Positions 28,821 through 42,825 of a stretch of 64,000 bases of DNA are shown piece by piece. Positions within the stretch are counted from its first letter, which is position 1. Each line of letters starts with the position of its first letter. The position numbers and the translations under genes are program-made. The DNA is from Crossiella cryophila. Lineage in GTDB: Bacteria > Actinomycetota > Actinomycetes > Mycobacteriales > Pseudonocardiaceae. The DNA lies in contig NZ_JACHMH010000001.1 in assembly GCF_014204915.1 (NCBI RefSeq), positions 1,302,001 to 1,366,000 of the forward strand, read 5' to 3'. Under the pieces are notes generated by a model. It ran no database searches. It was given only the letters and a program-made list of their open reading frames with translations, and was not told the DNA's origin.

Positions 28821-29744
28821 TCACTTGCGGAAGAACTTCTCCCGACGCCCCTGCAGCACGAGCTTGAGCCACTCGGCAAAGGCCTTCGGGTCCTTCTTCT
28901 GGCCCAGGAAGTACAGCCCGAACCGCACTGCCTCCAGCAGCCCCAGCTTGCGCATGCCCGGCTGGGAGAGCAGGTAGCCGCGGTTGCGGTAGGTGTAGTA
29001 GCGCTTCACCGGGTCGCCGGGGTCCTGGGCGTGGAAGCGGCCGCCGAGCATCGGCTTGAACTCGTCGGAGCCGTCCGGGTGGGCGTAGGCCACCTTCAGC
29101 GTGGTGCCGAAACGCAGGCCGCTGCGGACCACCCTGCGGTGGATCTCGACCTCGTCGCCGCGGAAGAACAGCCGGTAGTCCGGCACGCCCACCACGTCCA
29201 GGGTGGAGGCGCGGAACAGGGCGCCGTTGAAGAAGGAGGCGATGCCGGGCAGGAAGTCGGGGCTGTCCGGGCTGGACAGTTCCTCGCGGCGGCGCTTCCA
29301 GGTCAGGCCGCGGCGCAGCGGGAAGGCCAGCGTGTCCGGGTGCTCGATGTTGACCACGACCGGGCTGACCGCGGCCAGGTTGCGGCGCTTGGCCTCATCC
29401 AGCAGCACCTCCAGCACGGTGTCGTCGGCGGGGCGGCCGTCGTCGTCGCCCAGCCAGACCCAGTCCGCGCCCATGGCCAGCGCGTGCAGCATGCCAAGGG
29501 CGAAACCGCCCGCGCCACCGAGGTTGCGCTGGGACAGCAGGTAGGTGGTCGGGATCGGCGTGGCCTCGACGACCTCGCGCGCAGGCTGGTCCGGCCCGTT
29601 GTCGACCACGATGAGGTGGTCTGGTTGACGGGTCTGGGCCGCGATCACCTTCAGCGAATCGGCGAGCAGTTCCCGCCGGCGGCAGGTGACCACCACCGCG
29701 ATGACCTTGCCCTCCGGCGACTTCGACCCAGCCCGATCAGTCAT
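28821..29744 (-). CDS. glfT1: Galactofuranosyltransferase GlfT1
   Basis: 307 residues, close to Rv3782 (about 304). Adds the first two galactofuranose units to the lipid-linked rhamnosyl-GlcNAc primer of galactan. GT-A motifs: VVTCRRRELL at the start, NLGGAGGFALGML, and the metal-binding LGDDDGRPADD (about residue 100), then FFRGDEVEIHRR in the acceptor region. It is the third gene of a wzm-wzt-glfT1 set with 4-bp overlap to wzt, the same three genes as Rv3781-Rv3783. Confidence 0.92.
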   Translation of the reverse strand: MTDRAGSKSPEGKVIAVVVTCRRRELLADSLKVIAAQTRQPDHLIVVDNGPDQPAREVVEATPIPTTYLLSQRNLGGAGGFALGMLHALAMGADWVWLGDDDGRPADDTVLEVLLDEAKRRNLAAVSPVVVNIEHPDTLAFPLRRGLTWKRRREELSSPDSPDFLPGIASFFNGALFRASTLDVVGVPDYRLFFRGDEVEIHRRVVRSGLRFGTTLKVAYAHPDGSDEFKPMLGGRFHAQDPGDPVKRYYTYRNRGYLLSQPGMRKLGLLEAVRFGLYFLGQKKDPKAFAEWLKLVLQGRREKFFRK

Positions 29745-30532
29745 GGTGTGCCACCAGCTCCCACGGAAGCGTGTTCGTCGTCATTGGCGAACGGGTCCCT
29801 GCCCTTGTAATGGGTGAGCACCTCGCGCAGCGGACCGTGCTCCCTGACCTGCCCGTGGTCCACCCAGATCGCGGTGCTGCACAGGCTCTTCAGGAACTCG
29901 TCGGAGTGCGAGGCGAACACCAGCATGCCGGACCGCTTGACCAGGTCGTTGAGCCGGTCCCGCGCCTTGTCCAGGAAGGCCGCGTCGACCGCGCCGATGC
30001 CCTCGTCCAGCAGCAGGATCTCGGGGTCGATCGAGGTCACCACACCGAGGGCGAGACGCACCCGCATACCGGTGGAGTAGGTCCGCAGCGGCATCGACAG
30101 GTAGTTGCCCAGTTCGCTGAACTCGGCGATGTCGTCGATGCGGGATTCCATCTGCTTGCGGGTCATGCCCAGGAACAGCCCGCGGATGATGATGTTGTCG
30201 TAGCCGGAGATCTCCGGGTCCATGCCGACGCCGAGGTCGAAGACGGGCGCGACCTTGCCGACGATCCGCGAGGTGCCGCGGGTCGGCTCGTAGATGCCGG
30301 AGAGCAGGCGCAGCAGGGTGGACTTGCCTGCGCCGTTGTGTCCGACCAGCGCGACCCGGTCACCGTGCTGGAGCGAGATGGAGACATCCCGCAGCGCCTC
30401 GATCACCGGCACCTTGCCCTCGCCGCCGATCTTGCCGCCTGCCTTGCCGAGCACGGCCTTCTTCAGCGAGCGGGTCTTGGCGTCGAAGATGGGGAACTCG
30501 ACCCAGGCGTTCTGTACATCGATGCTGACCAT
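29741..30532 (-). CDS. wzt: Galactan precursor ABC exporter, ATP-binding subunit
   Basis: 263 residues. Walker A GHNGAGKST (about residue 68), the Wzt-type signature STGMRVRLALGV (in place of LSGGQ), Walker B ILLLDEGIGAVD and the switch His in FASHS. The N-terminal ~45 residues include the KKAVLGKAGGKIGGEGKVPV insertion typical of polysaccharide exporters; no carbohydrate-binding C-terminal domain is present. With the permease next door it exports lipid-linked galactan, as proposed for Rv3781. Confidence 0.9.
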   Translation of the reverse strand: MVSIDVQNAWVEFPIFDAKTRSLKKAVLGKAGGKIGGEGKVPVIEALRDVSISLQHGDRVALVGHNGAGKSTLLRLLSGIYEPTRGTSRIVGKVAPVFDLGVGMDPEISGYDNIIIRGLFLGMTRKQMESRIDDIAEFSELGNYLSMPLRTYSTGMRVRLALGVVTSIDPEILLLDEGIGAVDAAFLDKARDRLNDLVKRSGMLVFASHSDEFLKSLCSTAIWVDHGQVREHGPLREVLTHYKGRDPFANDDEHASVGAGGTP

Positions 30533-30547
30533 GGGAATTCAGCCCCC

Positions 30548-31408
30548 TTACACCCAGTAGGACACGCGGGCACGGTAGTTGCGCAACAGGACCAGCGCGG
30601 CGGCCCAGCCGACCACGGTGATGATGCCGACGATCATCCAGTGGTGGAACAGCTGGTCCTGGCCCAGCAGCGGCCGCCGGATGATCTCGATGAAGTGCAG
30701 GAACGGGTTGAACTGGGCCAGGTAGGCGCGATCAGCGATGAGCGGGTTCGAGTGGTTCTCCAGGATCCGGAAGTCCCACACGATCGGCGTCATGTAGAAC
30801 AGCAGCAGCACCACACTGCCGATGATCGGCGGGATGTCCCGGAACCGGGTGCTGATGATGCCGGTGAGCAGCGCGACCCAGCCGCCGTTGAGCACGATCA
30901 GCACGAAGGCCGGGATCGCGTAGACCACGGTCCACTTCAGGTCCTGCGGGAAGATCGCCAGCATGATGAAGTAGATCAGGAAGTTGTGCGCGAACAGCAG
31001 CACCTGCCGCCAGATCAGCCGGAACACGTGCGTGGTCAACGGCGAGGGGAGCTGTTTGATCAGTCCCTCGTTGGCGATGAAGACGTTCGCGCCCTCATTG
31101 ACGCAGTTGGCGATGAACGTCCAGCAGACCAGGCCGACGGTCACGTACGGCAGGAAGAAGTTGATCGGCTGGTTCTGCAGGGCGGAGAACAGGATGCCCA
31201 TCGCCAGTGCCATCACACCGGTGCTGATGGTGATCCACAGTGGACCGAGCACGGAGCGCCGATAGCCCTGTTTGATGTCCTGCCAACCGAGGTGGCCCCA
31301 GAGCGAGCGCTGGTTCCAGCCGGCGCGCAGGTCTGCGAAGGCCCGGCCCCAGCTGCGGTACGCGCGGGCAGTGTTCACCGCTGGATTTTCAAGAGTGCTG
31401 CTGGACAC
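30548..31408 (-). CDS. wzm: Galactan precursor ABC exporter, permease subunit
   Basis: 286 residues from the GTG at 31408. ABC-2 type permease with an N-terminal amphipathic stretch (YRSWGRAFADLRAGWNQRSL), LGWQDIKQGYRRSVLGPLW before the first helix, and six hydrophobic segments; NPFLHFIEIIRRPLLG near the C-terminus is typical. The frame extends 17 codons upstream, but those would enter the promoter region. No clear ribosome binding site is seen. It faces the divergent metallophore importer operon across about 210 bp. Confidence 0.88.
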   Translation of the reverse strand: MSSSTLENPAVNTARAYRSWGRAFADLRAGWNQRSLWGHLGWQDIKQGYRRSVLGPLWITISTGVMALAMGILFSALQNQPINFFLPYVTVGLVCWTFIANCVNEGANVFIANEGLIKQLPSPLTTHVFRLIWRQVLLFAHNFLIYFIMLAIFPQDLKWTVVYAIPAFVLIVLNGGWVALLTGIISTRFRDIPPIIGSVVLLLFYMTPIVWDFRILENHSNPLIADRAYLAQFNPFLHFIEIIRRPLLGQDQLFHHWMIVGIITVVGWAAALVLLRNYRARVSYWV

Positions 31409-31572
31409 GAAAGTGAGGGTACCGGCGCGACAATCCGTACTTGGCCACCGGTGGGTCATAGCGCGGTCGCGGTGCGCGATGACCGGCCGCCCGAACAGTG
31501 GATTTCACCAAGCGTGGCGTTAGGGGATCGTGACGGTGCCCACGACTTCCGGGTGACAAAACCAAGGCAAGA

Positions 31573-31587
31573 TGAAAACCGTTATCG
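31573..31587 (+). promoter_or_regulatory. Zur-like box upstream of the metallophore importer operon
   Basis: TGAAAACCGTTATCG, a 7-1-7 imperfect dyad close to actinobacterial Zur boxes (TGAAAATnATTTTCA type). TATCGT at 31583-31588 could be the -10 element. It lies 35 bp before the GTG at 31623 and inside a wider imperfect dyad (31561-31599). The same arm mismatches recur in the box at 42798. Confidence 0.6.
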
Positions 31588-31622
31588 TCTTGCTTGGTCC
31601 CGTTCCCACCTGGAGGTGCCTG

Positions 31623-32645
31623 GTGCGTCCGTCGCACGCCAAGATCGGCCTGCTCAGCCTGGTCACAGTGTCGACAGTCCTGGTTTCCGCGTGCACCGCG
31701 GCACCACCCGCGACCGCTCCCGCGAACACCTCCGGAGCCGCCGGAACCGACGTTCCGGTCAGTGCCGCACCGCTCGCGCCCTCGCTCAGCGTGACCGACC
31801 CGAACGGGCAGAACCTGACCCTGCCCAAGATCCCGGAACGCATCGTCTGCCTCACCGGATTGTGTGACGACGCGCTCACCGAACTCGGTCTGAAACCGGC
31901 GGGCAGCTCCAACGCGGTGCTGCTGACCCTGCCGCAGATCGCCGGCGAGGCAGGCAAGTCGGTGCCGGTGGTCCCCGGCAGCTTCGGTCAGGAGGACGTG
32001 GAGGCGATCGGCGCGCTCAAACCGGACCTGGTGATCGGACTTTCCGGTGTGCACGACGGACTCCGGCCCGCGGTGACCAAGTTCAATGCTCCACTGTGGA
32101 CGGTCAACCCGAACAGCTGGGAGCAGTCCGTCGGCTACCTGCGCAACCTCGGCGCGCTCACCGGCCGCACCGAGCAGGCGGTGGCCGCGGAGACCAAGTT
32201 CCGGACGAAACTGGCCAAGGCCATCGCCACCAGCAAGCAGAAGGGCCTGCACAAGCAGACCGTGCTGCTGATGTTCGGCAGCGCCGACTCGATCGGCGTG
32301 GACACCGCCGACTCGATCAACGGCAAGCTGCTGGGCCAGCTCTTCGGCTACCCGTTCCCGGCCAAGGGCACCAACGCCGAGACCGCGAACACCTACAGCG
32401 TCGAGGAGATCCTGGCCAAGCAGCCGACCGTGGTCTTCGTCTACTCCTTGATCTTCGCCGCCAGCGACAAGAAGCTGTCCGAACAGCTCGCCGCGAACCC
32501 GGTGTGGAAGCAGGTGAAGGCCGTGCAGTCCGGTCAGGTGCACGAGGTCGTGCCCAAGCTCTGGGGCTCCGGCCGGGGCACCCGCAGCCTCGGCGCGATC
32601 ATCGACGAGGCCATCGCCAAGGTGTCCGCGGCGCCTGCGGCGTGA
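31623..32645 (+). CDS. Metallophore-type ABC importer, substrate-binding lipoprotein
   Basis: 340 residues, FecB/BtuF-type cluster A binding protein. Lipoprotein signal with lipobox VSAC (about residue 24) followed by an Ala/Thr-rich linker; the domain begins with LPKIPERIVCLTG, has ALKPDLVIGLSG in the middle and TNAETANTYSVEEILAKQP later, typical of this class. It would capture a metal complex outside the membrane. The GTG at 31623 has GGAGG 6 bp upstream; the ATG at 31572 lies in the operator and is rejected. The stop overlaps the first permease gene by 4 bp. A Zur-like box precedes the gene. Confidence 0.85.
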   Translation: MRPSHAKIGLLSLVTVSTVLVSACTAAPPATAPANTSGAAGTDVPVSAAPLAPSLSVTDPNGQNLTLPKIPERIVCLTGLCDDALTELGLKPAGSSNAVLLTLPQIAGEAGKSVPVVPGSFGQEDVEAIGALKPDLVIGLSGVHDGLRPAVTKFNAPLWTVNPNSWEQSVGYLRNLGALTGRTEQAVAAETKFRTKLAKAIATSKQKGLHKQTVLLMFGSADSIGVDTADSINGKLLGQLFGYPFPAKGTNAETANTYSVEEILAKQPTVVFVYSLIFAASDKKLSEQLAANPVWKQVKAVQSGQVHEVVPKLWGSGRGTRSLGAIIDEAIAKVSAAPAA

Positions 32646-33631
32646 GCCGGTTCCGCGCGCCCCTGCTGGCCGTGCTGGCGCTGCTGGTGATCGGCACGGC
32701 CACGCTCTGCCTTGGCACCCCGCTGGTCGGCGTCAACCGGCTGCCCGCCGCGTTCGCCGGCGAGACCGACCTCGAGCACGCCGTGGTGGTGCTGCTGCGC
32801 ACGCCCCGGCTGCTGCTCGGGCTGTGCGCGGGCGCGGCACTGGGCGCGGCCGGACTCCTGTTGCAGGAGTCGCTCCGGAATCCACTGGCCGTGCCGGAAC
32901 TGCTCGGTGTCTCCAGCGGCGCCTCGGCCGCGGTGGCCATCACCGTGGTGTGGGCACTGCCGGTGCCGGGCGCGCCGCTGGTCCCGGCGTTGCTGGGCGC
33001 GGTGCTCGGCGGGCTGCTGACCCTGCTCGCCGCGCGCAAGGCGGTCGGACCGGCCGCGGTGCTGCTGATCGGCGCCGCGGTCAGTGCCGGACTGCAGGCG
33101 ATCATGTTCACCGGGCTGTCGCTGTCGGACTCCCGGGAGCAGGGCGTGCTCTTCCGCTACCTGCTCGGCTCGCTGACCGGTACCACCTGGGACACGGTCG
33201 CCTTCGCCGCGCCCGGCCTGCTCGCCGCGTTGCCGCTGGCCCTGCTCGCGGTGCCCGCGCTCGGCCTGCTGCGGCTGGGCGATGACACCGCCTCGGCACT
33301 CGGCCTGCGGGCCGACCGGGCCCGGCTGGCGGTGCTGGTGCTGGCCTGCGCGCTGGTCGCGGTCGCGGTCGGACCGGCGGGGCCGATCGCCTGGGTCGGT
33401 TTCCTCGGCCCGCAGCTGGCCCGGCGACTGCGTCCCTCGGCCGAGGCCAGGGGCTGGCTGGCCTGGTCGGCGTTGTTCGGCGCACTGCTGGTCGCGGTGG
33501 CGGATCTGTTGGCCCGCACCGTGCTCTACCCGGTCGAACTGCCGGTGGGCGGGCTGACCGCGGTGGTCGCGGTGGTGCTGGGCGCGCTGCTGATGTTCCG
33601 TCGCCGCGCGGACCGGGAGGCACTGGGATGA
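32642..33631 (+). CDS. FecCD-family metallophore permease 1
   Basis: 329 residues with about nine to ten hydrophobic segments and FecCD signatures: RTPRLLLGLCAGAALGAAGLLLQ, RNPLAVPELLGVSSGA and, late, GPIAWVGFLGPQLARRL. One half of a heterodimeric channel for metal complexes. The GTG start overlaps the binding-protein stop and the stop overlaps the second permease start, so the four importer genes form one coupled operon. Confidence 0.9.
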   Translation: MSRFRAPLLAVLALLVIGTATLCLGTPLVGVNRLPAAFAGETDLEHAVVVLLRTPRLLLGLCAGAALGAAGLLLQESLRNPLAVPELLGVSSGASAAVAITVVWALPVPGAPLVPALLGAVLGGLLTLLAARKAVGPAAVLLIGAAVSAGLQAIMFTGLSLSDSREQGVLFRYLLGSLTGTTWDTVAFAAPGLLAALPLALLAVPALGLLRLGDDTASALGLRADRARLAVLVLACALVAVAVGPAGPIAWVGFLGPQLARRLRPSAEARGWLAWSALFGALLVAVADLLARTVLYPVELPVGGLTAVVAVVLGALLMFRRRADREALG

Positions 33632-34647
33632 CCCGCGCACTCGCCCTGCCCGTGCTGGCCGTGCTGCTGGCGCTGGCCGCGCTGGCCCAGCTCTCGGTCG
33701 GCAGTGCGGTCGGCCCGCTGACCACGCTGGGCGCGTTGTTCGGCAGTGGCAGCGAACTGGAACTGACCATCGTCGGCGAACTGCGGTTGCCGCGGATGCT
33801 GGTCGCGCTGGGCACCGGCGCCTGTCTCGGCCTCGGCGGCGTGGTGCTGCAGGCCGTGCTGCGCAATCCGCTGGCCTCCCCGGAGGTCACCGGGGTCGGC
33901 TCCGGCGCGGTGCTCGGCGCGGTGACCGCCACCGTGTTCGGCCTGGCCGGGACCGCGGGCGGACTCACCGCGGCGGCCGTGCTGGGCGGGGTCCTCGGCG
34001 GCGCGGCGCTCTGGCTGATCGCCTCCAGGGCGGGCACGGATCCGTTGCGGCTGGTGGTGCTCGGCGTGCTGGTGTCCGCGGTGCTGGCCGGGCTGTCCCT
34101 GGTGCTGCTCACCGCCCGCCCGCAACTGGCCGGGGCGGCCGCCCGGTGGCTGGTCGGCTCGCTCAACGGGCGGACCTGGGAGCACTGGCACGCGCTGTGG
34201 CCCTGGCTGCTCGCGGTGGTCCTGCTGCTGGCCATGGTCGCGCCCGCGCTGGACCTGCTCGCGGTGGACGACGACCACGCCCGCGGCGTCGGCCTGGCGG
34301 TCACCCCGTGGCGCAGCCTGGCCCTGCTCGGTGCGGTGCTGGCCACCGCGGCCGCGGTCGCCGCGGTGGGCGCGGTGGCCTTCGTCGGACTGCTCGCCCC
34401 GCACGCCGCCCGGCTGCTGGCCGGGGCCGAGCACCGGTTGCTGTTGCCCGCGGCCGGGATCGCGGGCGCGGCCAGTGTGTGCGGTGCGGATTTCCTCGCG
34501 CAGGCGGTGACGCTGCTGGTCCCGGCCTCGGGCAGTCAGCGGCTGGGCGTGCCGGTCGGTGCGGTGACCGCGCTGGCGGGCGCGGTGGTGTTGATCGTGG
34601 TCGCGCGCCGGTTCTCCAGCGCGCTGGCGGGGAGGGACCAGTCATGA
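33628..34647 (+). CDS. FecCD-family metallophore permease 2
   Basis: 339 residues, the second FecCD subunit. Signatures: LRLPRMLVALGTGACLGLGG, RNPLASPEVTGVGSGA and GAVAFVGLLAPHAARLL. Ten or so hydrophobic segments. ATG overlaps the previous stop (ATGA); the ATPase gene overlaps its stop likewise. Confidence 0.9.
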   Translation: MTRALALPVLAVLLALAALAQLSVGSAVGPLTTLGALFGSGSELELTIVGELRLPRMLVALGTGACLGLGGVVLQAVLRNPLASPEVTGVGSGAVLGAVTATVFGLAGTAGGLTAAAVLGGVLGGAALWLIASRAGTDPLRLVVLGVLVSAVLAGLSLVLLTARPQLAGAAARWLVGSLNGRTWEHWHALWPWLLAVVLLLAMVAPALDLLAVDDDHARGVGLAVTPWRSLALLGAVLATAAAVAAVGAVAFVGLLAPHAARLLAGAEHRLLLPAAGIAGAASVCGADFLAQAVTLLVPASGSQRLGVPVGAVTALAGAVVLIVVARRFSSALAGRDQS

Positions 34648-35420
34648 TCAGTGGAACCGGTATCACCGTCCGGTTCGGCCTGCGCGCGGTTCTGTCCACT
34701 GTGGACATCCGGGTGGCCGCGGGGGAGTGGCTCGCGCTGGTGGGCCGCAACGGCTGCGGCAAGAGCACCCTGCTGCGCGTGCTGGCCGGGCTGCACCCAC
34801 CGGATCAGGGCACCGTGACCCTCGGCGCGGACGAGCTGAACTCGTTGTCCCGCAGGGAGATCGCCCGCCGGATCGCGGTGCTGCCACAGGCCATGCCCGC
34901 GGTGCCGGGGCTGACCGTGCGCCAGCTGGTCCGGCAGGGCCGCTACGCCGTGCGTGGCCCGCTGGGCATGCTGCGCGCCGGTGACGACGAACCGGTGCGC
35001 CGGGCGCTGGCCGAGACCGGGGTGGCCGAGTACGCCGACGCCGCGGTGGACCGGCTCTCCGGCGGCGAGCGCCAGCGGGTCCGGTTGGCCCTCGCGCTGG
35101 CCCAGGACGCGCCGGTGCTGCTGCTCGACGAACCCACCACCTACCTGGACGTCCGGCACCAGCTGGAGGTACTGGAACTGGTCGCCCGGCTGCGCGCCGA
35201 ACGCGGCCTGACCGTGGTCACCGTGCTGCACGACCTGGCCCAGGCCGCCCGGTTCGCCGACCGGGTGCTCGCGCTGCGGGACGGCGTGGTGCACGCGGAC
35301 GGCCCGGCCGCCGAGGTGGTCGACGCGGACCTGCTGGCCGGGGTCTTCGGCGTGCGTGGCCGGGTCTGGCGGGACGAGCACACCGGCCGTCCGGCCTGCT
35401 CCTACGACACGGTGCTGTAG
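34644..35420 (+). CDS. Metallophore ABC importer, ATP-binding subunit
   Basis: 258 residues, FecE/BtuD type. Walker A GRNGCGKST (about residue 35), Q-loop VLPQAMP, signature LSGGERQRVRLA, Walker B VLLLDEPTTYLD and switch His in VLHDLAQAARFAD. GGAGGG lies 7 bp upstream of the ATG. The 3' end overlaps the convergent MFS gene by 19 bp. Together with the three upstream genes it forms a complete importer. Confidence 0.9.
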   Translation: MISGTGITVRFGLRAVLSTVDIRVAAGEWLALVGRNGCGKSTLLRVLAGLHPPDQGTVTLGADELNSLSRREIARRIAVLPQAMPAVPGLTVRQLVRQGRYAVRGPLGMLRAGDDEPVRRALAETGVAEYADAAVDRLSGGERQRVRLALALAQDAPVLLLDEPTTYLDVRHQLEVLELVARLRAERGLTVVTVLHDLAQAARFADRVLALRDGVVHADGPAAEVVDADLLAGVFGVRGRVWRDEHTGRPACSYDTVL

Positions 35421-36661
35421 ACCGGCTCCGGCTTCGCCTCGGTGCGCAACGGCGAGCACCAGGCGAGCACCACGCCGATCGCGAGCACGCCGACCACGGC
35501 GGCGAGTCCGGCACTCGGGCTCGCCGCCACCGCGACCGCGCCCGCCAGCGTCGCGCCCAGCGGCTGACCGAGTCCCCAGGACAGCATCCTGGCCGTGGTG
35601 TTGACCCGTCCCTGCAGCTCAACCGGGGTGACCTGCTGCCGGAAGGTGATCGCGTTGATCACCACCGTGGTGTAGGCGGTGCCCCAGGCGATCGCGGCCA
35701 GCGCGCCCAGCAGCCAGTGCGAGCTGAACACCACCGCCAGCCCGGACAGCAGCGAGGCAGGCAGCGCCCGCAAGGCCAGCCGCGCCGGTCCCAGCCGACG
35801 GCTCAGCACCGGCACCAGCTTGGCCGCGATCAGCCCGCCAACGCCCCAGCAGCTCATCAGCACCGCCAGCCGGGCATCGCCGCTGGGTGGCACGCCGAGC
35901 GAGCGGTCCGCCCACGGCACCACCATCGCCACCCAGGCCCCGCCGGCGGCCGAGTGGGTCGCGCCGACCAGGGTCAGCGTGCGCACGGTCGGCTGCCGCC
36001 ACAGGAAGCCAAGCCCGGCCCGGACATCGGCCCTGATGTCGGCCATCGAGCGCGGTCGCCCTGCCCGGTCGGCCGCGGACAGCGGGCGGGTGATGGCCCG
36101 GATCAGCAGTGCGGAGATGCCGTAGCTGAGCGCGTCCAGGGCCAGCATCGGCGCGGGGGAGAAGATCGTCACGGCCAGCGTGGCCAGCGGCGGCACCACC
36201 ATCTCCACCACCGTGGTCACCCCGAACACGGTGGAGTAGGCCGAGGTGGTCCGGTCCTTGCCGACCAGCGTGGGCAGCGCGCCGAAGTTGGCCGAGTCGA
36301 AGACCACGAACAGCGTCTGGGACAGGAACCCGACCGCCACCACGTGCACCGCGCTGAGCCCGTCCAGCGCCCACGCGATCGGCACGCTGGCCAGCAGCAG
36401 CGCGTTGAGCAGGTCCACCGTCACCATCAGCGCGCGCCGGTCCAGCCGGTCCGCCAGCGCGCCGGCGAGCAGGCCGAACAGCAGGTAGGGCAATGCCTCC
36501 GCGGCGGCAACGGCCGCGGTCCAGGCCGCCGAACCGGTCAATCGGTACACCAGGATCGGCAGCGCGACCACGGTGACCAGCGAACCGGCCACGGAGACCA
36601 CCCTGGCGGCCAGGTACCGGCGGAAGTCCGGGTCCCGCCGGAGGGCTACGACGTTCGTCAC
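35402..36661 (-). CDS. MFS transporter, EntS-like exporter candidate
   Basis: 419 residues, 12 hydrophobic segments. The MFS-type loop GALADRLDRRALM after helix 2 and DIRADVRAGLGFLWRQP before helix 7 are typical of the enterobactin-exporter (EntS)-like and related macrolide-efflux MFS families. It starts with GTG at 36661, divergent from the precursor peptide gene, with a Zur-like box 20 bp upstream. In this context it most likely exports the peptide product, but drug efflux cannot be excluded from the sequence. Confidence 0.8.
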   Translation of the reverse strand: MTNVVALRRDPDFRRYLAARVVSVAGSLVTVVALPILVYRLTGSAAWTAAVAAAEALPYLLFGLLAGALADRLDRRALMVTVDLLNALLLASVPIAWALDGLSAVHVVAVGFLSQTLFVVFDSANFGALPTLVGKDRTTSAYSTVFGVTTVVEMVVPPLATLAVTIFSPAPMLALDALSYGISALLIRAITRPLSAADRAGRPRSMADIRADVRAGLGFLWRQPTVRTLTLVGATHSAAGGAWVAMVVPWADRSLGVPPSGDARLAVLMSCWGVGGLIAAKLVPVLSRRLGPARLALRALPASLLSGLAVVFSSHWLLGALAAIAWGTAYTTVVINAITFRQQVTPVELQGRVNTTARMLSWGLGQPLGATLAGAVAVAASPSAGLAAVVGVLAIGVVLAWCSPLRTEAKPEPVYSTVS

Positions 36662-36680
36662 CCGAGCACACTAACACTAT

Positions 36681-36695
36681 TGGTAATGACTTTCA
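36681..36695 (-). promoter_or_regulatory. Zur-like box between the exporter and the RiPP precursor operon
   Basis: On the minus strand TGAAAGTCATTACCA, a 7-1-7 arrangement, the weakest of the three boxes in the island. It lies 20 bp before the MFS start and 56 bp before the precursor ATG, so one site could control both divergent transcripts. Confidence 0.5.
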
Positions 36696-36750
36696 TTTGT
36701 GATAGGCATGAGGAGGTTGAAGGTCAACCGCGATCTGGAGGAGGTACGAG

Positions 36751-36855
36751 ATGGACAAGGTCTTCGTGCGCGTCGAGGCCGAGCGCGAGCTGCCGCACAA
36801 CTCGGCTAGCCACAGCAACGCCCTGGTCGAGAACCCGTTCGCCGACCAGGACTGA
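36751..36855 (+). CDS. RiPP precursor peptide, Ser/His-rich core (34 aa)
   Basis: A 34-codon gene with a perfect GGAGGAGG (36737-36744) 6 bp before its ATG. The first 15 residues are a charged leader (VRVEAERELP); residues 16-23 read HNSASHSN and are followed by ALVENPFADQD. The only residues a YcaO cyclodehydratase could cyclise are Ser18, Ser20 and Ser22; there is no Cys or Thr. It directly precedes a leader-binding partner, an S15-type hydrolase, YcaO and a SagB-type dehydrogenase, all on the same strand. I infer Asn-, Ala- and His-linked oxazoles, a good N-donor set for zinc. Identification as precursor rests on position, size and composition. Confidence 0.72.
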   Translation: MDKVFVRVEAERELPHNSASHSNALVENPFADQD

Positions 36856-36872
36856 TTCCGGTCTGACCTCAA

Positions 36873-36908
36873 GGTGGCCCGTCGTACCCCGGGGTGCGGC
36901 GGGCCACC
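36873..36908 (+). terminator. Hairpin between precursor and modification genes (attenuator candidate)
   Basis: GGTGGCCCG (36873-36881) pairs with CGGGCCACC (36900-36908), and the interior continues the pairing with one G-U down to CCCCGGGG, giving an almost continuous 17-bp stem. No T tract follows. It lies 17 bp after the precursor stop and 19 bp before the next start; such hairpins often keep precursor mRNA in excess over the enzymes. Confidence 0.6.
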
Positions 36909-36927
36909 GCTGGTGGTGGAGGTGCGC

Positions 36928-37716
36928 ATGAGCAAGCTGACGCCGGGCGCCGTGCTCTTCGGGCTGCCCGCGGACCGGACCGCGTTGCGCTCGCCCGAGG
37001 GCGAGGTGCTCGACATCGCGCTGCCGCCGGAGGTCCTCGCCGCCGTGCGGGCCACCCTGTCCGGCAGTGCGCAGGCCCCGCCGGAGCTGGCCGCCTTCGC
37101 CGCGTCCGGCTTCCTGGGCCGGCGCCGGAGCTGGCCGACCGAACGCGCGACCGTCGGCATCCTGGCCGCCGACGACCTGGCCGAGTCCTACGCCGACCTG
37201 CTGCGCGGCCACGGCGCCCAGCCCCGCCTGCTGACCGGCACCGACTCCCTGGACGGCCTGGCCGCGGTCTGCGCCCTGCACGACGGCCCAGCCCCCGAGT
37301 GGTGGACCGAACTGGACGAGCTGCCCGATCGCGGCATCGCCTGGCAGCGGATCAGCCGCGAGGGCAGGCACGCCCTGCTGGAACCGGTCGCCGCCACCGC
37401 GGCCGACGTCCGGCACCGCGACGTCCGGCTGCGCCGCCTGGCCGCCGCGGGTTCCGGGCACGAGCACCTGAGCGCGTACTGGGCCCAGCGGGATGTCCTC
37501 ACCGGCGCGGAGCAGTTCGACCCCGCCGACCTGAACCTGGTGCTCGCCGCCGCCGCCCTGGATCTCCGCGTCTGGGCGACCGACCAGCCCACCCGCACCG
37601 CCGGATCCCTGGTGACCAGCGAACTCCCCGCCAACCGGCGGCTGCGGGTCCTCGACCTGGACACCGGTGCGATCACCGACCACCCGGTACTCCGGGTCCC
37701 GGACTGCGCCCCGTGA
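36928..37716 (+). CDS. Azole-RiPP cyclodehydratase partner / leader-binding protein (ocin-ThiF-like)
   Basis: 262 residues. The first ~75 residues (TPGAVLFGLPADRTALRSPE and the following helices) resemble the RiPP recognition element, a small winged-helix domain that holds the leader peptide. The remainder looks like the degenerate E1/ThiF-like fold of thiazole/oxazole-modified microcin systems, with HALLEPVAATAADVRHRDVRLRRLAA near residue 150, but without the Cys pairs of true E1 enzymes. It would present the precursor to YcaO. The ATG at 36928 has GGAGG 5 bp upstream; a GTG at 36874 lies inside the hairpin and is rejected. Overlaps the next gene by 4 bp. Confidence 0.7.
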   Translation: MSKLTPGAVLFGLPADRTALRSPEGEVLDIALPPEVLAAVRATLSGSAQAPPELAAFAASGFLGRRRSWPTERATVGILAADDLAESYADLLRGHGAQPRLLTGTDSLDGLAAVCALHDGPAPEWWTELDELPDRGIAWQRISREGRHALLEPVAATAADVRHRDVRLRRLAAAGSGHEHLSAYWAQRDVLTGAEQFDPADLNLVLAAAALDLRVWATDQPTRTAGSLVTSELPANRRLRVLDLDTGAITDHPVLRVPDCAP

Positions 37717-39143
37717 GCGCAGAAGTAGAGGGGCACCTCGTCCCCGCCGCGGACGAGGTGCCCCTCGCTACCACCGTGTTTCGCTCTCCCGAGCGTGAGC
37801 GATCTCCGGTGGTACTTCTTCGTTCCCCCTACGATCAGCGGCTAAACCACGCCGAGGCAAAAAGTTGGGCGAGCCGGGGTTTTGCCTGCGTAACGGCTGA
37901 TACCCGGGGCAGATTCGGCTCCGGCGGCACCTTCCTGCCGTACGCGCACGAACGCTCCGACGGGGCCACCCTGCTCGACTGGGTACACGCCCAGGACTTC
38001 TGCGACGGCCGGGTCCTGCTCGCCGGCGCCTCCTACGGTGCCTACTGCGCCCTGGTCACCGCCGCCGCCCGCACCGCCCCGGTAGCCGGGGTGATCGCCG
38101 CCGTCCCGGCCATGGGCCCCGGCGAAACCGCCCGCGACCCCGGCGGCGCGGCCAGGCTGGCCTGCCGCGCGGGCTGGTGGTCCGAACACGGCGGCACCGG
38201 CCGGCCCCGCCCACCGGCCGACCTCGACCTCACCCACCTGCCCGTCCGCGACCTGGTCGACCAGCCCGGCTGGCCCGAACTCTGGTCCGCCCCCCGCCGC
38301 GGCCCACTCTGGTCCGAACTCCCGCACTGCGAGGTCCCCCTGCTCGCCATCGGCGGCGTGCACGACCCCTTCGCCGCCGACACCGCCGAACTGGCCGCGA
38401 CCTGGGGCGGCCCGTCCCGCCTGGTCCTGGGCCCTTGGGGCCACCTCCTGGACAGCCACGCCCCGGGCGCCGCCCTGGCAGGTAAACGGATCGGCGCGCT
38501 CTACCTGGCCTTCGCCCACGCCGCCCTCGCCGACACCCAGACCGGTCACCGCGCCTGGATCGCCACCGGCGACCACTGGTCCCACTGGCCCACCGGCACC
38601 GGCCCCACCCACCAGCTGTCCGTGGCCCGCGGCGTGTTCACCGCCGACCCCACGAACCCGTTCCCCTCCCGCGCCCCCGCCGCCGACCTGGGCATCGACG
38701 CCAACCGCCCGGACCGTGCCCTGCTGCACTCCGCCCCGCTGCCCGGCGGCGTGCTGCGTGGCCGGATCGGCGTCCGGCTGCGGCTGCGCGCGGACACCCC
38801 GGACAACGACTGGCTGCTCCGACTGTCCACAGTGGAGGACAACCGGCAGCTCGCGCACGTGATCTTCCGCGACACCGCCCCACCCGGCCACCCGGTCGAG
38901 CGCACCGCCGAGCTGGGCCCACTCGGCGTCGAGCTGCCGCCGGGAACCCGGCTGCGGCTGGAGATCGCCGGCCACCACTGGCCCCGGCACGCCCGCAACC
39001 CGCACACCGGCGTGGACCCGGTCGACGCGATCGAGCTGCGCCCCAGCCGCCGCGAGGTCCTGGCAGCCGAGTTCACCCTGCCCCTGGCCACGGCCACCGA
39101 CGCGGTGGCCGCGGCGAACCTGATCGAGGAGGTGGTCCGGTGA
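37713..39143 (+). CDS. S15/CocE-NonD family alpha/beta hydrolase, possible leader peptidase
   Basis: 476 residues. Alpha/beta hydrolase core with nucleophile elbow GASYGAY (about residue 110), the acid in IGGVHDPF and the catalytic His in GPWGHLLDSH; the C-terminal ~170 residues form the jelly-roll domain of Xaa-Pro dipeptidyl-peptidase/CocE proteins. The catalytic triad is intact. In the operon it sits between the leader-binding protein and YcaO, with 4-bp overlaps on both sides. The precursor has Leu-Pro immediately before HNSASHSN, so removal of a Leu-Pro dipeptide or cleavage after Pro is an attractive role; an esterase or amidase role is also possible. Confidence 0.75.
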   Translation: MSAEVEGHLVPAADEVPLATTVFRSPERERSPVVLLRSPYDQRLNHAEAKSWASRGFACVTADTRGRFGSGGTFLPYAHERSDGATLLDWVHAQDFCDGRVLLAGASYGAYCALVTAAARTAPVAGVIAAVPAMGPGETARDPGGAARLACRAGWWSEHGGTGRPRPPADLDLTHLPVRDLVDQPGWPELWSAPRRGPLWSELPHCEVPLLAIGGVHDPFAADTAELAATWGGPSRLVLGPWGHLLDSHAPGAALAGKRIGALYLAFAHAALADTQTGHRAWIATGDHWSHWPTGTGPTHQLSVARGVFTADPTNPFPSRAPAADLGIDANRPDRALLHSAPLPGGVLRGRIGVRLRLRADTPDNDWLLRLSTVEDNRQLAHVIFRDTAPPGHPVERTAELGPLGVELPPGTRLRLEIAGHHWPRHARNPHTGVDPVDAIELRPSRREVLAAEFTLPLATATDAVAAANLIEEVVR

Positions 39144-40507
39144 GCCTGCCGCCGGAGACCATGGTCGACCCGCTCACCGGCATCGTGCGCCGGTTCGTCG
39201 ACGTCGCGCCGGTGCCCGGACTGCCGCACCGCTACCGCGGCGTCACCGCCGAGGTCTCCGACGCCCGCCGCCTGGGCGCCTGGCCCGCGGACCGGGTCAG
39301 CCTGGGCACCACCTTCGGCGACGTCGAAGGCGCCAGGGTCGCCGCCCTTGGCGAGGCCGTCGAACGCTACTGCGGCAACCGCCTGCCCCCACTCGACGAT
39401 CCCCGCCTGCGCCGCACCACCGCGGCCACCCTGGCCGCCGAGGGCCACCGCCACTTCGGCCCCGCCGACTTGCCGTTCTTCGCCCCCTGGCAACACCGCG
39501 AACCCGGCTTCCCGTACCAGGAATTCACCCCGGACACCGAGCTGCTGTGGACCCGCGGCGAGGAGGACGGCGACCCCTGCTGGCTGCCCGCCTCCTGGGT
39601 CTACCTCAACTACTTCACCGGCGAACGCAGGCGGGAACCCCGCCTGCACCACCTCAACTACGCAGGCATCGCCACCGGCGCGGACGCCCCCGACGCCCAC
39701 CGCCGCGGCCTGCTCGAACTCCTGGAACGCGACGCCCTGGAACTCTGGTGGCACCTGGACGCCCCCAGCAGAGGCATCGCCCTGGACTCGGTCCCCGGCC
39801 TGCGAGCCGACCTCGCCGGCACCCGCCTCAAGATCCACCTGGTCGAACTCCCCACCGAACACCCGGTCGCCTGCGTCGCCGCGGTGGCCATCGACGAGGA
39901 GACCGGCATCGTCGCCGGCGGCGGCGCGGCCCGCTTCGACCCGGCCGAGGCCTGCGCCAAGGCCGCCATGGAAGCCATCCACACCTGGGTCTTCACCCTG
40001 GGCCTGCTCGAACCCGACGGCTGGGTCTTCGACACGATCAAAGCCGGCATCCTGGCCAAGGGCCTGTACCTGGACCACCGCGCCGACCGCCACTACCGCG
40101 ACAACGCCGGCCCCCACTTCGCCCGAGTCCGCGACCTGGGCGCCCAACCCCAGATCTGGCTCGACCCCAGAACCCAGGAATCCCTGCTCCACCGCTTCAC
40201 CAACCCCGGCACCCACATCACCGCCGCCGACCTCCCCGTCGGCACCTTCCCCGAACTCCAGGAAAGCCTCCGCGCCCAAGGCTGCCGGGTGGCCACCGTC
40301 GACCTGACCACCCCGGACGTCGCGGAAACCCCGTGGCGAGTCCTCCGGGTCGCCGCCACCGGCCTGGTCCCCAACGCCCCGGCGGCCTTCCGCTACCTCG
40401 GCCTGCCCCGCTGGCGCGAGGTACAGCGCGCCCGCGGCTGGGCCCCGGCAGCCAGTCCACTGGCCGGTCCGGAGGGCCTGGTCCTGGACCCGCCCCCGTT
40501 CCTGTGA
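39140..40507 (+). CDS. YcaO-domain cyclodehydratase
   Basis: 455 residues. ATP/Mg-binding residues typical of YcaO are visible: ALGEAVERYCGN (about residue 73), ELLERDALELWWH (about 190) and EACAKAAMEAIHTWVF (about 270). The C-terminus ends in DPPPFL, the proline-rich tail characteristic of azoline-forming YcaO enzymes. It would phosphorylate backbone amides of the precursor and form oxazolines from Ser. It is a stand-alone D protein, its C-type partner being the protein encoded at 36928. ATG overlaps the hydrolase stop, and its stop overlaps the dehydrogenase start. Confidence 0.88.
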   Translation: MSLPPETMVDPLTGIVRRFVDVAPVPGLPHRYRGVTAEVSDARRLGAWPADRVSLGTTFGDVEGARVAALGEAVERYCGNRLPPLDDPRLRRTTAATLAAEGHRHFGPADLPFFAPWQHREPGFPYQEFTPDTELLWTRGEEDGDPCWLPASWVYLNYFTGERRREPRLHHLNYAGIATGADAPDAHRRGLLELLERDALELWWHLDAPSRGIALDSVPGLRADLAGTRLKIHLVELPTEHPVACVAAVAIDEETGIVAGGGAARFDPAEACAKAAMEAIHTWVFTLGLLEPDGWVFDTIKAGILAKGLYLDHRADRHYRDNAGPHFARVRDLGAQPQIWLDPRTQESLLHRFTNPGTHITAADLPVGTFPELQESLRAQGCRVATVDLTTPDVAETPWRVLRVAATGLVPNAPAAFRYLGLPRWREVQRARGWAPAASPLAGPEGLVLDPPPFL

Positions 40508-41478
40508 CCGCGATCGAACAGGCTCTCACCGCAGCCTGGACCGGCGCCGACCCCGGCCCCACCATCCTGGAGAACTGGCCACCCAGCCGCCGCCGCTTCC
40601 CACCAGGCCCGGCCCAGGACCTCCCACGCCACCCCACCCCCGGCCTCGGCGCGCTACTCGACCTCTCCCTGGCAGGCGACCCGGCACGCAAGGTCGGCGG
40701 CGTCCGCCTCCGCCGGGTCCCCTCAGCGGGCGGCCGCTACCCCGTCAACGCCTACCTGGGCCCCGCCTACTACGACCCCATCACCCACACCCTGCACGGC
40801 CCCCCGGCCAACACCATCACCCTTGCCCTGCAACCACAACGCACCACCTGGCGCTACGGCCCCCGCGCCCTCCCCGTCCTCCTGCTAGACCTCGGCCACG
40901 CCCTCGCCGCCATCCTCACCGCCGCCCACACCCTCGGCATCCCCGCCAAAGCCACCTTCACCCCACAACCCCCACGCCACGGCGAATACCCACTCGCAAC
41001 AGTCCACTTAGGACTGTCCACAGGCGAGCAACCCGAAAGCCCAACCCCGGCCCCCCTCCCGGACCCACCCGCCCTGCCCCTGATCGAAGCCGCCCTCACC
41101 GAACTGAGCACCCACCCAGCCACCCCCTTGCCCTGGCAACCCCCCGCCGTCACCCCGGAAACCCTGCGCACCCGCCACACCGCCCCCTGGCCAACCCGCG
41201 GCCCGATCTCCTTGCCGGAGCACGGACTCATCGCGATCCGGCCAACCGCGGAACTGGCTGGCAGCTCGTGCGGGCAACCGGAACTCGCCAAGGCCGAACT
41301 CCTGCTCCTGGCCACCGGCGAGCCCGAACCGCTGAACTTCGTGCGGGCGGGGATGGCTGTGCATCGGGCCTGGTTGCTGGCCACCGCCGCGGGGTTGTCG
41401 GTCCGGCCGGTGGGGTGCTGGATCCGGGCCTGGCACGGAGGCCAGCGCGTGTTGCACGCGCTGGCCGTCGGGCCTTAG
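40504..41478 (+). CDS. SagB-type azoline dehydrogenase (nitroreductase fold)
   Basis: 324 residues. The FMN-binding SAGGRYPVNAYLG near residue 78 is the signature of SagB/McbC-type dehydrogenases, and the N-terminal RHPTPGLGALLDLSLA fits the family; a second, more diverged half of the fold follows (GEPEPLNFVRAGMAVHRAWLLATAAGL). It would oxidise azolines to azoles with FMN, so the final product should be oxazole- rather than oxazoline-bearing. The Pro-rich middle (residues ~175-205) may be a linker. GTG start overlaps the YcaO stop. It ends convergently with the AztD-like gene, 4-bp overlap. Confidence 0.78.
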   Translation: MTAIEQALTAAWTGADPGPTILENWPPSRRRFPPGPAQDLPRHPTPGLGALLDLSLAGDPARKVGGVRLRRVPSAGGRYPVNAYLGPAYYDPITHTLHGPPANTITLALQPQRTTWRYGPRALPVLLLDLGHALAAILTAAHTLGIPAKATFTPQPPRHGEYPLATVHLGLSTGEQPESPTPAPLPDPPALPLIEAALTELSTHPATPLPWQPPAVTPETLRTRHTAPWPTRGPISLPEHGLIAIRPTAELAGSSCGQPELAKAELLLLATGEPEPLNFVRAGMAVHRAWLLATAAGLSVRPVGCWIRAWHGGQRVLHALAVGP

Positions 41479-42761
41479 CGACCCACCAGGTCCGCGTGCC
41501 GGACCCCGGGCTCCCACACCGCCACCGACCCGCCGCCGGTCAGCGCGGTGGGCAGCTTCAGCGTGCCGCGGATCCGCCTGCCCGCGGTGTCCACCACATC
41601 CACCCGCCCCTGACCGCCCGCGGTCACGAACGCCCGCCCGCCGTCATCGGTCAGCGCGACCCGCCGTCCCTGCGCGCTGAACGGCTCCGTACCGCCCTGC
41701 GGCCCACCCGGCAGCGTCCCCAGGTCGACCCGCCCGGTCACCTTCGCGGTGCCCAGGTCCACCAGCACCAGTTCATCGGTGCGGCCGCCCTGCACCACGT
41801 ACCCGGCCAGGCTGTCGGACAGGCCGAAGCGGTACAGGTAGCCGGTGCCAAGGGGGATCCGGTGGGCTTCGCCGGTGGTCGCGTTGGTCAGGTAGGCGTC
41901 CTCGGTCCACTGGGTCCAGTCGGTGGCGCGGTCGTCGCGGACGTAGCTGGCCACGGTGCGGCTGTCGTCGGCCAGGCGCAGGTAGAAGGCGCGGCCGCCG
42001 GTGCGGCCGGAGATGTTCCATGGCACCGTGCGGGCGGGGCCGAAGGTGCCGTCGGGGTGGGTGGGCAGCAGGTCGAGGCCGCGTTCGGTGGCGGCGGCGA
42101 TCACCCGGTGCCGGGCGGAGAACGCCTCGCCGTGGCCGTGCGCGCCGATCTCGGCCGAGCGGGCGGGGGACAGCGGCGCCTCGCCGGTGTGCGCCAGCAG
42201 GGCGCGGCGGGGGAAGGCCTGGACCGCGGCGGGGTCGTCGTTGCGCAGCAGGACCGAGTCGGTGGCGGCGTCGATGAGCACCCCCGGCTCACCGGCGGCC
42301 ACCGGGACCTCCTTGGTCTGCCAGGTCCGCAGGTCCACCACGGTGAGGTGGGCGCCCTCCGCGTGCGGGGCGGCCGGTTCCTCGTGTTCGTGGTGGGCGG
42401 CGCTGCTGACCACCGCGTAGCCGCCTGCCGGGTCCACGGTCAGGTGTGCGACCTCGCCGTCCACCGGCGCGGTGCCCAGCACCTTCGGCGTGCCGCTGAG
42501 CTGCAGCACCACCAGGGCGTGGTTGCGGTCGTCGACGAAGATCGCGCGGCCGTCCGGCAGGGTCACCACGCCCGCGTGGTCGTTGAGCACCCGGTCGGGC
42601 AGTGAGCCGGTCACCCGACCGGTGGCCGGGTCGAGCACGTGCACGGTGGCCGCGTGCTGGTCGGCCACCAGCACCCGGGCCCCGGACGGGGCCGCGACCG
42701 CGGGTGCGGCTGACGCGGTCATGGCTAACGCCGCCGCCACCGCGGTGAGGGATTTCAGCAT
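41475..42761 (-). CDS. aztD: AztD-like zinc metallochaperone, exported beta-propeller
   Basis: 428 residues. Sec signal peptide at the N-terminus (cleavage near AVAA-PSG). The mature part is built of about seven repeats of the type G-A-x-V-x-V-x-D-L, a beta-propeller. A His/Glu-rich loop, AAHHEHEEPAAPHAEGAH (about residue 120), is a likely zinc site as in the AztD chaperones that pass zinc to AztC binding proteins. No AztABC genes are visible; the FecB-type importer is the nearest uptake system. A Zur-like box overlaps its predicted promoter. Other secreted propellers are the alternative, but the His loop plus the box make AztD the best call. Confidence 0.72.
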   Translation of the reverse strand: MLKSLTAVAAALAMTASAAPAVAAPSGARVLVADQHAATVHVLDPATGRVTGSLPDRVLNDHAGVVTLPDGRAIFVDDRNHALVVLQLSGTPKVLGTAPVDGEVAHLTVDPAGGYAVVSSAAHHEHEEPAAPHAEGAHLTVVDLRTWQTKEVPVAAGEPGVLIDAATDSVLLRNDDPAAVQAFPRRALLAHTGEAPLSPARSAEIGAHGHGEAFSARHRVIAAATERGLDLLPTHPDGTFGPARTVPWNISGRTGGRAFYLRLADDSRTVASYVRDDRATDWTQWTEDAYLTNATTGEAHRIPLGTGYLYRFGLSDSLAGYVVQGGRTDELVLVDLGTAKVTGRVDLGTLPGGPQGGTEPFSAQGRRVALTDDGGRAFVTAGGQGRVDVVDTAGRRIRGTLKLPTALTGGGSVAVWEPGVRHADLVGR

Positions 42762-42770
42762 GTCGTCCTA

Positions 42771-42794
42771 CCTCCTGAAGGTCACTTCAGGAGG
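42771..42794 (-). promoter_or_regulatory. Hairpin enclosing the aztD ribosome binding site
   Basis: A perfect 10-bp inverted repeat (42771-42780 and 42785-42794, 4-base loop). On the minus strand its downstream arm ends in AGGAGG, the ribosome binding site, 9 nt before the ATG. The upstream arm is an exact anti-SD sequence. If transcription starts near 42790, as the predicted promoter implies, only about 6 bp of the stem would be present in the RNA. Confidence 0.65.
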
Positions 42795-42796
42795 GG

Positions 42797-42825
42797 ACGA
42801 TAATCATTTTCAATTAGCCTGACAA
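42797..42825 (-). promoter_or_regulatory. aztD promoter with overlapping Zur-like box
   Basis: On the minus strand: -35 TTGTCA (42820-42825), 17-bp spacer, -10 TATCGT (42797-42802). The box TGAAAATGATTATCG (42798-42812) occupies the spacer and -10, so a bound repressor would block polymerase. It is the best match of the three boxes to the Zur consensus; only two of seven arm positions are asymmetric. Confidence 0.68.

Follow-up and report, generated by a model that had tools for sequence, protein, structure and literature searches.

A putative Zur-repressed island for a ribosomally made azole zincophore in Crossiella cryophila

Linear azol(in)e-containing RiPPs (TOMM/LAP) are characterised by a YcaO cyclodehydratase, an E1-like partner, a SagB-type dehydrogenase and a short Ser/Thr/Cys precursor. 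Coelibactin, the yersiniabactin-like NRPS metallophores and C. diphtheriae sidAB are Zur-controlled clusters with a predicted secreted chelator and their own transporters, according to the portions available of PMC6711530 and PMC6103462. The bacterial small-molecule zincophores of the literature examined, available in part, are nonribosomal products, opine-type compounds or EDDS; metallophores of ribosomal origin are either copper peptides or zinc-binding proteins that carry no modification.

An island of C. cryophila brings elements of these systems together. It is probably (about 70%) a Zur-repressed RiPP zincophore system. The importer, exporter, precursor, modification genes and propeller of the first-pass annotation are all present in place. 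The features are listed by position in the window, which is the whole 64-kb stretch of DNA analysed.

31573-31587: Zur-like box TGAAAACCGTTATCG, upstream of the importer operon, 3 mismatches to TGANAATNATTNTCA
31623-32645, plus strand: FecB-type substrate-binding lipoprotein (PF01497, 1.3e-21)
32642-33631, plus strand: FecCD permease 1 (PF01032, 6.4e-63)
33628-34647, plus strand: FecCD permease 2 (PF01032, 7.9e-72)
34644-35420, plus strand: importer ATPase, FecE-like (PF00005, 1.5e-33; best NCBIfam model FecE, under cut-off)
35402-36661, minus strand: predicted MFS exporter (PF07690/PF05977)
36681-36695: Zur-like box TGGTAATGACTTTCA, between the exporter and the precursor operon, 2 mismatches to TGANAATNATTNTCA
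36751-36855, plus strand: 34-aa precursor MDKVFVRVEAERELPHNSASHSNALVENPFADQD, with a GGAGG ribosome-binding site
36928-37716, plus strand: E1-like, leader-binding-type partner of YcaO
37713-39143, plus strand: S15/CocE-type serine hydrolase, candidate leader/tail peptidase (PF02129, 4.1e-31)
39140-40507, plus strand: YcaO cyclodehydratase (PF02624, 1.3e-44)
40504-41478, plus strand: SagB-like FMN dehydrogenase, putative azoline oxidase (PF00881, 1.7e-7)
41475-42761, minus strand: beta-propeller with AztD-like fold, signal-like N-terminus and His-rich loop
42798-42812: Zur-like box CGATAATCATTTTCA, upstream of the propeller gene, 1 mismatch to TGANAATNATTNTCA

The start of FecB is placed at GTG 31623 rather than ATG 31572 because GGAGG precedes the GTG and the ATG overlaps the box. 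Pfam scans of the ten island proteins gave no match to an MNIO (DUF692) enzyme, an NRPS or any peptidase other than S15/CocE.

The earlier proposal that a ribosomal peptide serves as a secreted zinc carrier is supported by the conserved importer and the boxes; its chemistry, export and dealings with zinc would run as follows. When zinc is scarce, Zur would leave the three boxes and the island would be expressed. The E1-like partner would bind the 34-residue precursor and hand it to YcaO which, judging by the enzyme families, would cyclise the Ser (Thr, Cys) residues of the core to oxazolines; SagB would convert these to oxazoles, and azolines may remain where it is missing. The leader, and perhaps the tail, would be trimmed by the S15/CocE hydrolase. 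The product would be exported by the MFS protein, or in Streptomyces by two ABC exporters, and may bind Zn(II) outside the cell through two conserved His and azole nitrogens. FecB would capture the zinc complex for import by FecCDE, and the AztD-like propeller, where present, may take up or release zinc.

Modification enzymes and precursor

YcaO relatives at E <= 1e-3 number 380 loci, of which the best 80 were examined. Among 100 relatives, 15 do not have a NALV-type precursor and are left out of counts on 85; these are seven loci on 3.5 to 11.4 kb stretches, plus L068, L069 and L071-L076, which are variant or distant. Locus counts are not counts of independent species, since the same genome occurs twice in L058/L087, L060/L094 and L062/L139. 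The gene set is conserved in Streptomyces, Pseudonocardiaceae, Nocardiopsis, Williamsia, Nocardioides and others.

The genome has three YcaO matches, the island protein among them. As in TOMM/LAP systems, that protein matches PF02624 above cut-off; its score for TIGR03604 (SagD-family) is 211 bits, just under the cut-off of 219. The E1-like leader-binding partner typical of these systems is also present, and its best structural matches are synthetases of known azol(in)e RiPP systems. The SagB-type dehydrogenase had been named from a protein that matches weakly standing alone (TIGR03605, 27 bits, cut-off 78.4); the assignment becomes firmer solely through the family alignment, whose profile finds the putative nitroreductase 3eo7 (2.6e-12) and SagB-type/CyaGox structures (7e-4), the latter agreeing with the TOMM/LAP dehydrogenase. 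SagB occurs in 64 of the 85 precursor-bearing relatives, three of these being weak matches to a separate gene. It was not found in the other 21 precursor loci, three of which end just after YcaO; at loci without SagB the product may therefore be azoline. Of 83 sequences, 81 keep S107, 81 keep D218 and 82 keep H244 of the S15/CocE triad.

The precursor is found in 86 of 101 sequences. Its 70 distinct forms are short, as TOMM/LAP precursors are, and carry a near-invariant Ser/Thr/Cys core, H-N-S-A-S-H-S-N, with two conserved His and a conserved ALVENPF tail; the core also recurs in Rhodococcus relatives. A plasmid search with the precursor gave no match. Alignment position -8, which in the window directly precedes the core His, holds Ala or Pro in 66/70 precursors and would suit an X-Pro/X-Ala type peptidase. 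With assumed cleavage sites, the computed [M+H]+ for HNSASHSNALVENPFADQD is 2052.901 for the linear peptide, 1998.869 with three oxazolines and 1992.822 with three oxazoles; for the bare window core HNSASHSN the corresponding values are 853.355, 799.323 and 793.276.

Importer, exporter and Zur-like boxes

The Peripla_BP_2 binder, two FecCD permeases and ATPase together make up a siderophore-type (FecBCD) ABC importer. The closest solved relatives of FecB are iron-siderophore-type binders (best YfiY, 1.4e-14); a lipobox-like VSAC was read by eye. The best NCBIfam model for the MFS protein is 2A0121 (186 bits), and the EntS model matches at 2.6e-21, both under cut-off. An MFS or further ABC-type match lies on 80 of the 85 precursor loci; the other five are on 10.4-13.4 kb stretches.

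In the comparative search that the first-pass annotation had proposed, 76 of the 85 precursor-bearing relatives (65/72 of stretches of at least 18 kb) have the full set of four Fec genes together on one stretch, and a box lies within 300 bp of 79 of the 85 precursors. Nine loci have an incomplete Fec set on the available stretch. Homologous clusters devoid of both boxes and importer were sought among the 85 relatives and none was found. Across 397 genomes the importer is present in 16 and YcaO in 19; they share 12 genomes against 0.77 expected (P 3e-15).

Some strains appear to keep the putatively Zur-controlled importer (and exporter) without biosynthesis genes. Boxes at <=2 mismatches lie on three of the four importer stretches without YcaO. 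At L172 the importer and a divergent CobW/COG0523-type GTPase share one box region; such GTPases are listed among Zur targets in the part available of PMC6103462.

Many azole RiPPs are antimicrobial. The peptide might accordingly be a zinc-starvation weapon or signal, with FecBCDE importing zinc on other chelators and common Zur control as the sole tie. The importer can have a separate job, as 4 of the 16 genomes that carry it have no YcaO. However, the near-invariant core in 70 distinct precursors is unlike a diversifying weapon, and importer and YcaO keep company far beyond chance; we consider a weapon or signal unlikely.

The hypothesis that the importer corresponds to S. coelicolor SCO0472-SCO0476, which are Zur targets, led nowhere. 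In the portions available of the sources, SCO0472 is described both as a lipoprotein and as a predicted binding protein (PMC6593405), SCO0475 is under Zur regulation (PMC4726154) and a putative Zur site lies at the start of SCO0476 (PMC10320115).

The 7-1-7 Zur-like boxes claimed for all three promoters are present, and pattern, matrix and simulation place them beyond chance. They fit the 7-1-7 promoter Zur box of Actinobacteria, the published ChIP motif being tGaNNatSatNNtCa (PMC5472717, available in part). Mismatches to the pattern TGANAATNATTNTCA were counted over the 10.06-Mb genome: at <=2 mismatches it occurs in 20 places, two of them in the island, against 4 for a control pattern. Places with a single mismatch number just two, one of which is in the island. 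When the two Crossiella loci are kept out of the matrix training, the island boxes still rank as the top three sites of the window, with CGATAATCATTTTCA first, TGAAAACCGTTATCG second and TGGTAATGACTTTCA third. No site in 3 Mb of simulated sequence matched their scores; in a longer simulation, sites scoring >=20.8 arose at 2 per 10 Mb. Chance boxes are ruled out by these counts, rankings and simulations. The TGAAAACCGTTATCG box is identical in L077, L078, L079, L080 and L057, and the TGGTAATGACTTTCA box is at the same place in L077 and L078.

Among relatives, the six precursors without a nearby box have a weaker site at 57-83 bp, the right distance; five score 17.2-21.7 (3 mismatches) and L059 only 11.3 (4 mismatches). 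A box lies upstream of 48/48 propeller homologues of precursor-bearing loci, and only 52/75 FecB genes have one at two mismatches. Boxes are absent from L069 and L072-L076, which are distant YcaO loci. In 80 named loci there are 150 Zur-like sites at <=2 mismatches against a mean of 8.7 for 60 permuted palindromes; since five of these gave 40 to 113, this test is not relied on and the reversed control and matrix are used instead. Several of these five resemble, in our judgement, the true motif in a shifted or overlapping form.

The other 1-mismatch place in the genome precedes a thiazolinyl imide reductase/NRPS/Nik-Opp-Cnt-like-binder cluster separate from the island (G000:C1:4906000-4925000). 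Clusters of this kind are under Zur control elsewhere, so the box is plausibly Zur's. A ZnuA-type gene in the same genome has a weaker site (15.7) ending 39 bp upstream of the ATG, 18 sites per 10 Mb being expected by chance at a score of 15.6; at L157, the second ZnuA-type locus, no site scores above 8.4.

The genome has four Fur-family genes, and a ribosomal metallophore for copper, nickel, cobalt or iron could be governed by a Fur-family repressor that reads this box. FecB relatives are siderophore-type binders, the RiPP metallophores of the literature examined are copper-linked (PMC13097082, available in part), and the NRPS cluster also has an iron-box-like stretch. Against this, the box resembles the Zur motif, an iron-box consensus with up to 4 mismatches allowed occurs in only 4 places of the 80 loci against the 150 Zur-like sites, and the CobW/COG0523-type GTPase and AztD-like fold point to zinc. 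Another metal is thus quite improbable.

The propeller

The label of AztD-like zinc chaperone stands for the fold and fails for the sequence. In a second look at Foldseek's best 1000, AztD structures take the first three places among 965 aligned chains, at least 3.4 Z above the next. The curated NCBIfam AztD model NF038015 has no match in the genome (E <= 0.001) or in hmmscan of the window propeller; it matches in 111/397 genomes of the order, 91 over cut-off. AztD proper was rejected on this ground and later partly reinstated by fold. Profile comparison with the order's AztD proteins gives a weak match over part of the length (probability 63%, E 7e-5, 112 columns). H62, H106 and H210 are invariant in 13/13 propellers; AztD zinc site 1 has three pore His as ligands (PMC6689063, available in part), and of the propeller residues H210 alone falls exactly on a conserved AztD His, H62 and H106 being off by 3 and 1 residues. 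The adjoining binder is FecB-type (PF01497), not an AztC-type cluster A-I protein. In a survey of the 48 propellers less L149 (start misplaced), most homologues look cytosolic, without a signal-like N-terminus. Since the propeller is also found in only 48/100 relatives and 3/397 genomes of the order, it is not an obligate chaperone.

The cytosolic look of these homologues and the lone S15/CocE peptidase would also suit a peptide kept in or on the cell as zinc buffer or propeller ligand, the MFS/ABC transporters serving something else, but the exporter-type gene on 80/85 precursor loci and the siderophore-type importer, which implies an extracellular ligand, make this very improbable.

Comparison with known systems

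Among the papers listed, searches of the open-licence PMC literature gave no description of a YcaO-made zincophore or Zur-linked RiPP, although a paper elsewhere may exist, and no mention of the core letters NALVENPF, SNALVEN or ALVENPF. The portions available of PMC12161575, PMC12710340, PMC5719810, PMC7794033, PMC12230676, PMC3123327 and PMC10957091 do not describe the island. We lean towards seeing in it the first representative of ribosomal His-azole zincophores, a family widespread in actinobacteria whose product is exported as a public good and has its own importer; importer-only strains may use the product of others. If the zincophore reading is true, azole RiPPs would be tied to nutrient uptake via a gene-encoded azole zincophore, an orphan YcaO group would gain a function, and a zinc chelator that can be edited genetically, and whose short core can be assayed, would be available. 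Regulator, importer and knock-out predictions are testable directly in ordinary Streptomyces.

The island shares its modification machinery with TOMM/LAP systems; unlike known members, it has Zur-like boxes, a siderophore-type importer, an AztD-like propeller, an S15/CocE hydrolase, and a precursor with a near-invariant His-containing core and conserved ALVENPF tail. Unlike the coelibactin and yersiniabactin-like NRPS clusters, it has a ribosomal precursor and a FecBCDE importer. Its propeller differs from PdAztD and CkAztD in identity (12-17%), in its FecB-type neighbour and in not matching NF038015. Captophorins/bufferins and methanobactin are, as the island product would be, ribosomally made metal-binding peptides; unlike the island, they are copper-linked, captophorins being made via MNIO enzymes and thiooxazole chemistry (PMC13097082, as far as available). 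The protein zincophores, fungal Pra1/Aspf2 and cyanobacterial ZepA (PMC10957091, available in part), are likewise ribosomal and secreted with a role in zinc uptake; these are unmodified proteins, whereas the island would supply a short azole peptide together with a siderophore-type importer.

Layout of the island and its boxes

The genome around the window is a single contig of 10.06 Mb. The island contains the genes and boxes named in the first-pass annotation, and they run in this order: a 7-1-7 palindromic box, FecB-FecC-FecD-FecE (+ strand), the MFS gene (-), a box, then precursor, partner, S15/CocE hydrolase, YcaO and SagB-like genes (+), the propeller (-) and a box. Successive Fec genes overlap by a few bases, as do the genes from the partner through SagB. 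All island genes except the partner are named by Pfam and NCBIfam models, the propeller solely by NCBIfam beta-propeller repeat models. The YcaO is 96% identical to one from Crossiella sp. S99.2, which suggests Crossiella or a near relative as the source. On the opposite strand (window 28821-31459), genes judged from sequence to be glycosyltransferase-like and for a polysaccharide-type ABC exporter end just upstream of the island.

The published Streptomyces coelicolor Zur ChIP motif is a 7-1-7 palindrome, tGaNNatSatNNtCa (PMC5472717). The pattern TGANAATNATTNTCA, at up to two mismatches, occurs at 20 places in the genome versus 4 for a control pattern; two of the 20 are inside the island. A matrix built from 171 such sites (89 distinct) in relatives, the two Crossiella loci excluded, gives the three claimed boxes the highest scores of the window's 64 kb (28.2, 21.8 and 20.9; next site 8.8). 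Sites as good as these were absent from 3 Mb of simulated sequence, and a longer simulation gave 2 per 10 Mb. The importer box has the same sequence in five loci (L057, L077-L080).

Conservation among relatives

At E <= 1e-3 the genome-collection scan found a relative encoded at 380 loci. The 80 with the best matches, together with 20 stretches from genomes of the order, make up the 100 relatives. The precursor is present in 85, together with S15 (85), the partner (84), all four Fec genes (76) and SagB (64). MFS is found on 36 of the 85; another 44 lack it and have an additional ABC-type match in the 7 kb that follow YcaO (two such matches in 39), and the five with neither lie on stretches of 10.4-13.4 kb.

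The 86 precursors in 101 sequences (window included) comprise 70 distinct ones, which were aligned on NALV and counted by position. Tail Ala, Leu, Val and Phe are each found in 70/70. Ser directly precedes Asn/His in 68, with His before that Ser in 66; the core Ala is present in 67 and the first core Ser in 66. In 59 precursors a second His stands at position -7, and in 7 at -6. At -8 there is Ala in 43, Pro in 23 and Ser in 4. The N-terminal region differs from clade to clade. Three loci (L065, L066, L067) have Cys-bearing cores. A locus with five Zur-like boxes encodes a two-repeat precursor (L070:7058-7300; EPVVMSALQGxGTNALVxNPFA). Two YcaO/S15/partner-type loci with a strong box have a different conserved small ORF with core VHTSNHATLRNASVAWRKR (L068:8862-9150 and L071:16837-17120); in these genomes the importer is located elsewhere (L172, L173). 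In L172 it is divergent from a CobW/COG0523-type GTPase gene (PF02492, 2.3e-54), with a box between.

Across the relatives (1.853 Mb), the TGANAATNATTNTCA pattern occurs at 174 places versus 1 for a reversed control. A box lies within 300 bp of the precursor start in 79 of 85 loci (median 62 bp); in the other six a weaker site precedes the start by 57 to 83 bp, with three mismatches in L063, L096, L129, L134 and L148 (17.2 to 21.7) and four in L059 (11.3). All 48 propeller homologues in precursor-bearing loci have a box. At two mismatches only 52 of 75 FecB genes do, a lower bound because the Crossiella-type FecB box has three mismatches. No box was found in the distant YcaO loci L069 and L072-L076, nor in the 4-kb stretches around this genome's two further YcaO genes.

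Among 397 genomes of the order, scored by their best candidates, 16 have FecB (E <= 1e-35) and 19 have YcaO (E <= 1e-50). Both occur together in 12, versus 0.77 expected (hypergeometric P 3e-15, which is optimistic because genomes share ancestry). The four stretches from genomes with FecB and no YcaO at those limits (L168-L171) each contain FecBCDE, with MFS in L168 and L169; three carry a box at up to two mismatches, and the site in L171 has three mismatches and scores 20.9. Neither YcaO nor an NALV-type precursor was seen on these stretches. These strains are possibly users of a product made by others.

Zur as the probable regulator

The genome's other one-mismatch place, at G000:C1:4922335, precedes the gene of a thiazolinyl imide reductase (TIGR01761, 300.9 bits, cut-off 188.8), in the following locus:

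L159:660-16350, in G000:C1:4906000-4925000: NRPS locus with a 1813-aa NRPS, thiazolinyl imide reductase, two ABC-exporter-like genes and a Gsi/Nik/Opp/Cnt-like binder

One of the two ABC-exporter-like genes was scanned and is MsbA-like. The locus contains two Zur-like sites, which overlap each other; between them and the reductase gene is an iron-box-like stretch. L159 is a putative second zinc metallophore locus of this genome. It resembles metallophore clusters which are Zur-controlled elsewhere, as described in PMC6711530 and PMC6103462.

At a ZnuA-type gene (L158), the best site in its 12 kb (15.7) ends 39 bp before the ATG; 18 sites per 10 Mb are expected at scores of 15.6 or more. A second ZnuA-type locus (L157) has no site above 8.4. 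There are four Fur-family matches in the genome. The 8-kb stretch with the best of these also contains a site scoring 15.7, which ends about 22 bp before a gene judged by eye to be membrane-protein-like (L161:382-1447); this gene is a possible further Zur target.

Proposed working and comparison with known systems

Gene content, conserved boxes, conserved core and importer-YcaO linkage are established at the level of sequence; the partner and propeller folds are model predictions. In the favoured reading, a Zur-repressed zinc carrier, azoles would form on the precursor, and the peptide would be trimmed and exported. The product would bind zinc, be taken up again and then release the metal, and the island would respond to zinc. 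With two His and as many as three azoles in eight residues, the predicted ligand is N-rich and would suit Zn(II).

No description of such a system was found in the open PMC literature, the only literature searched. There is precedent for azole RiPPs, for Zur-controlled chelators and for RiPP copper metallophores; what is new is their combination here.
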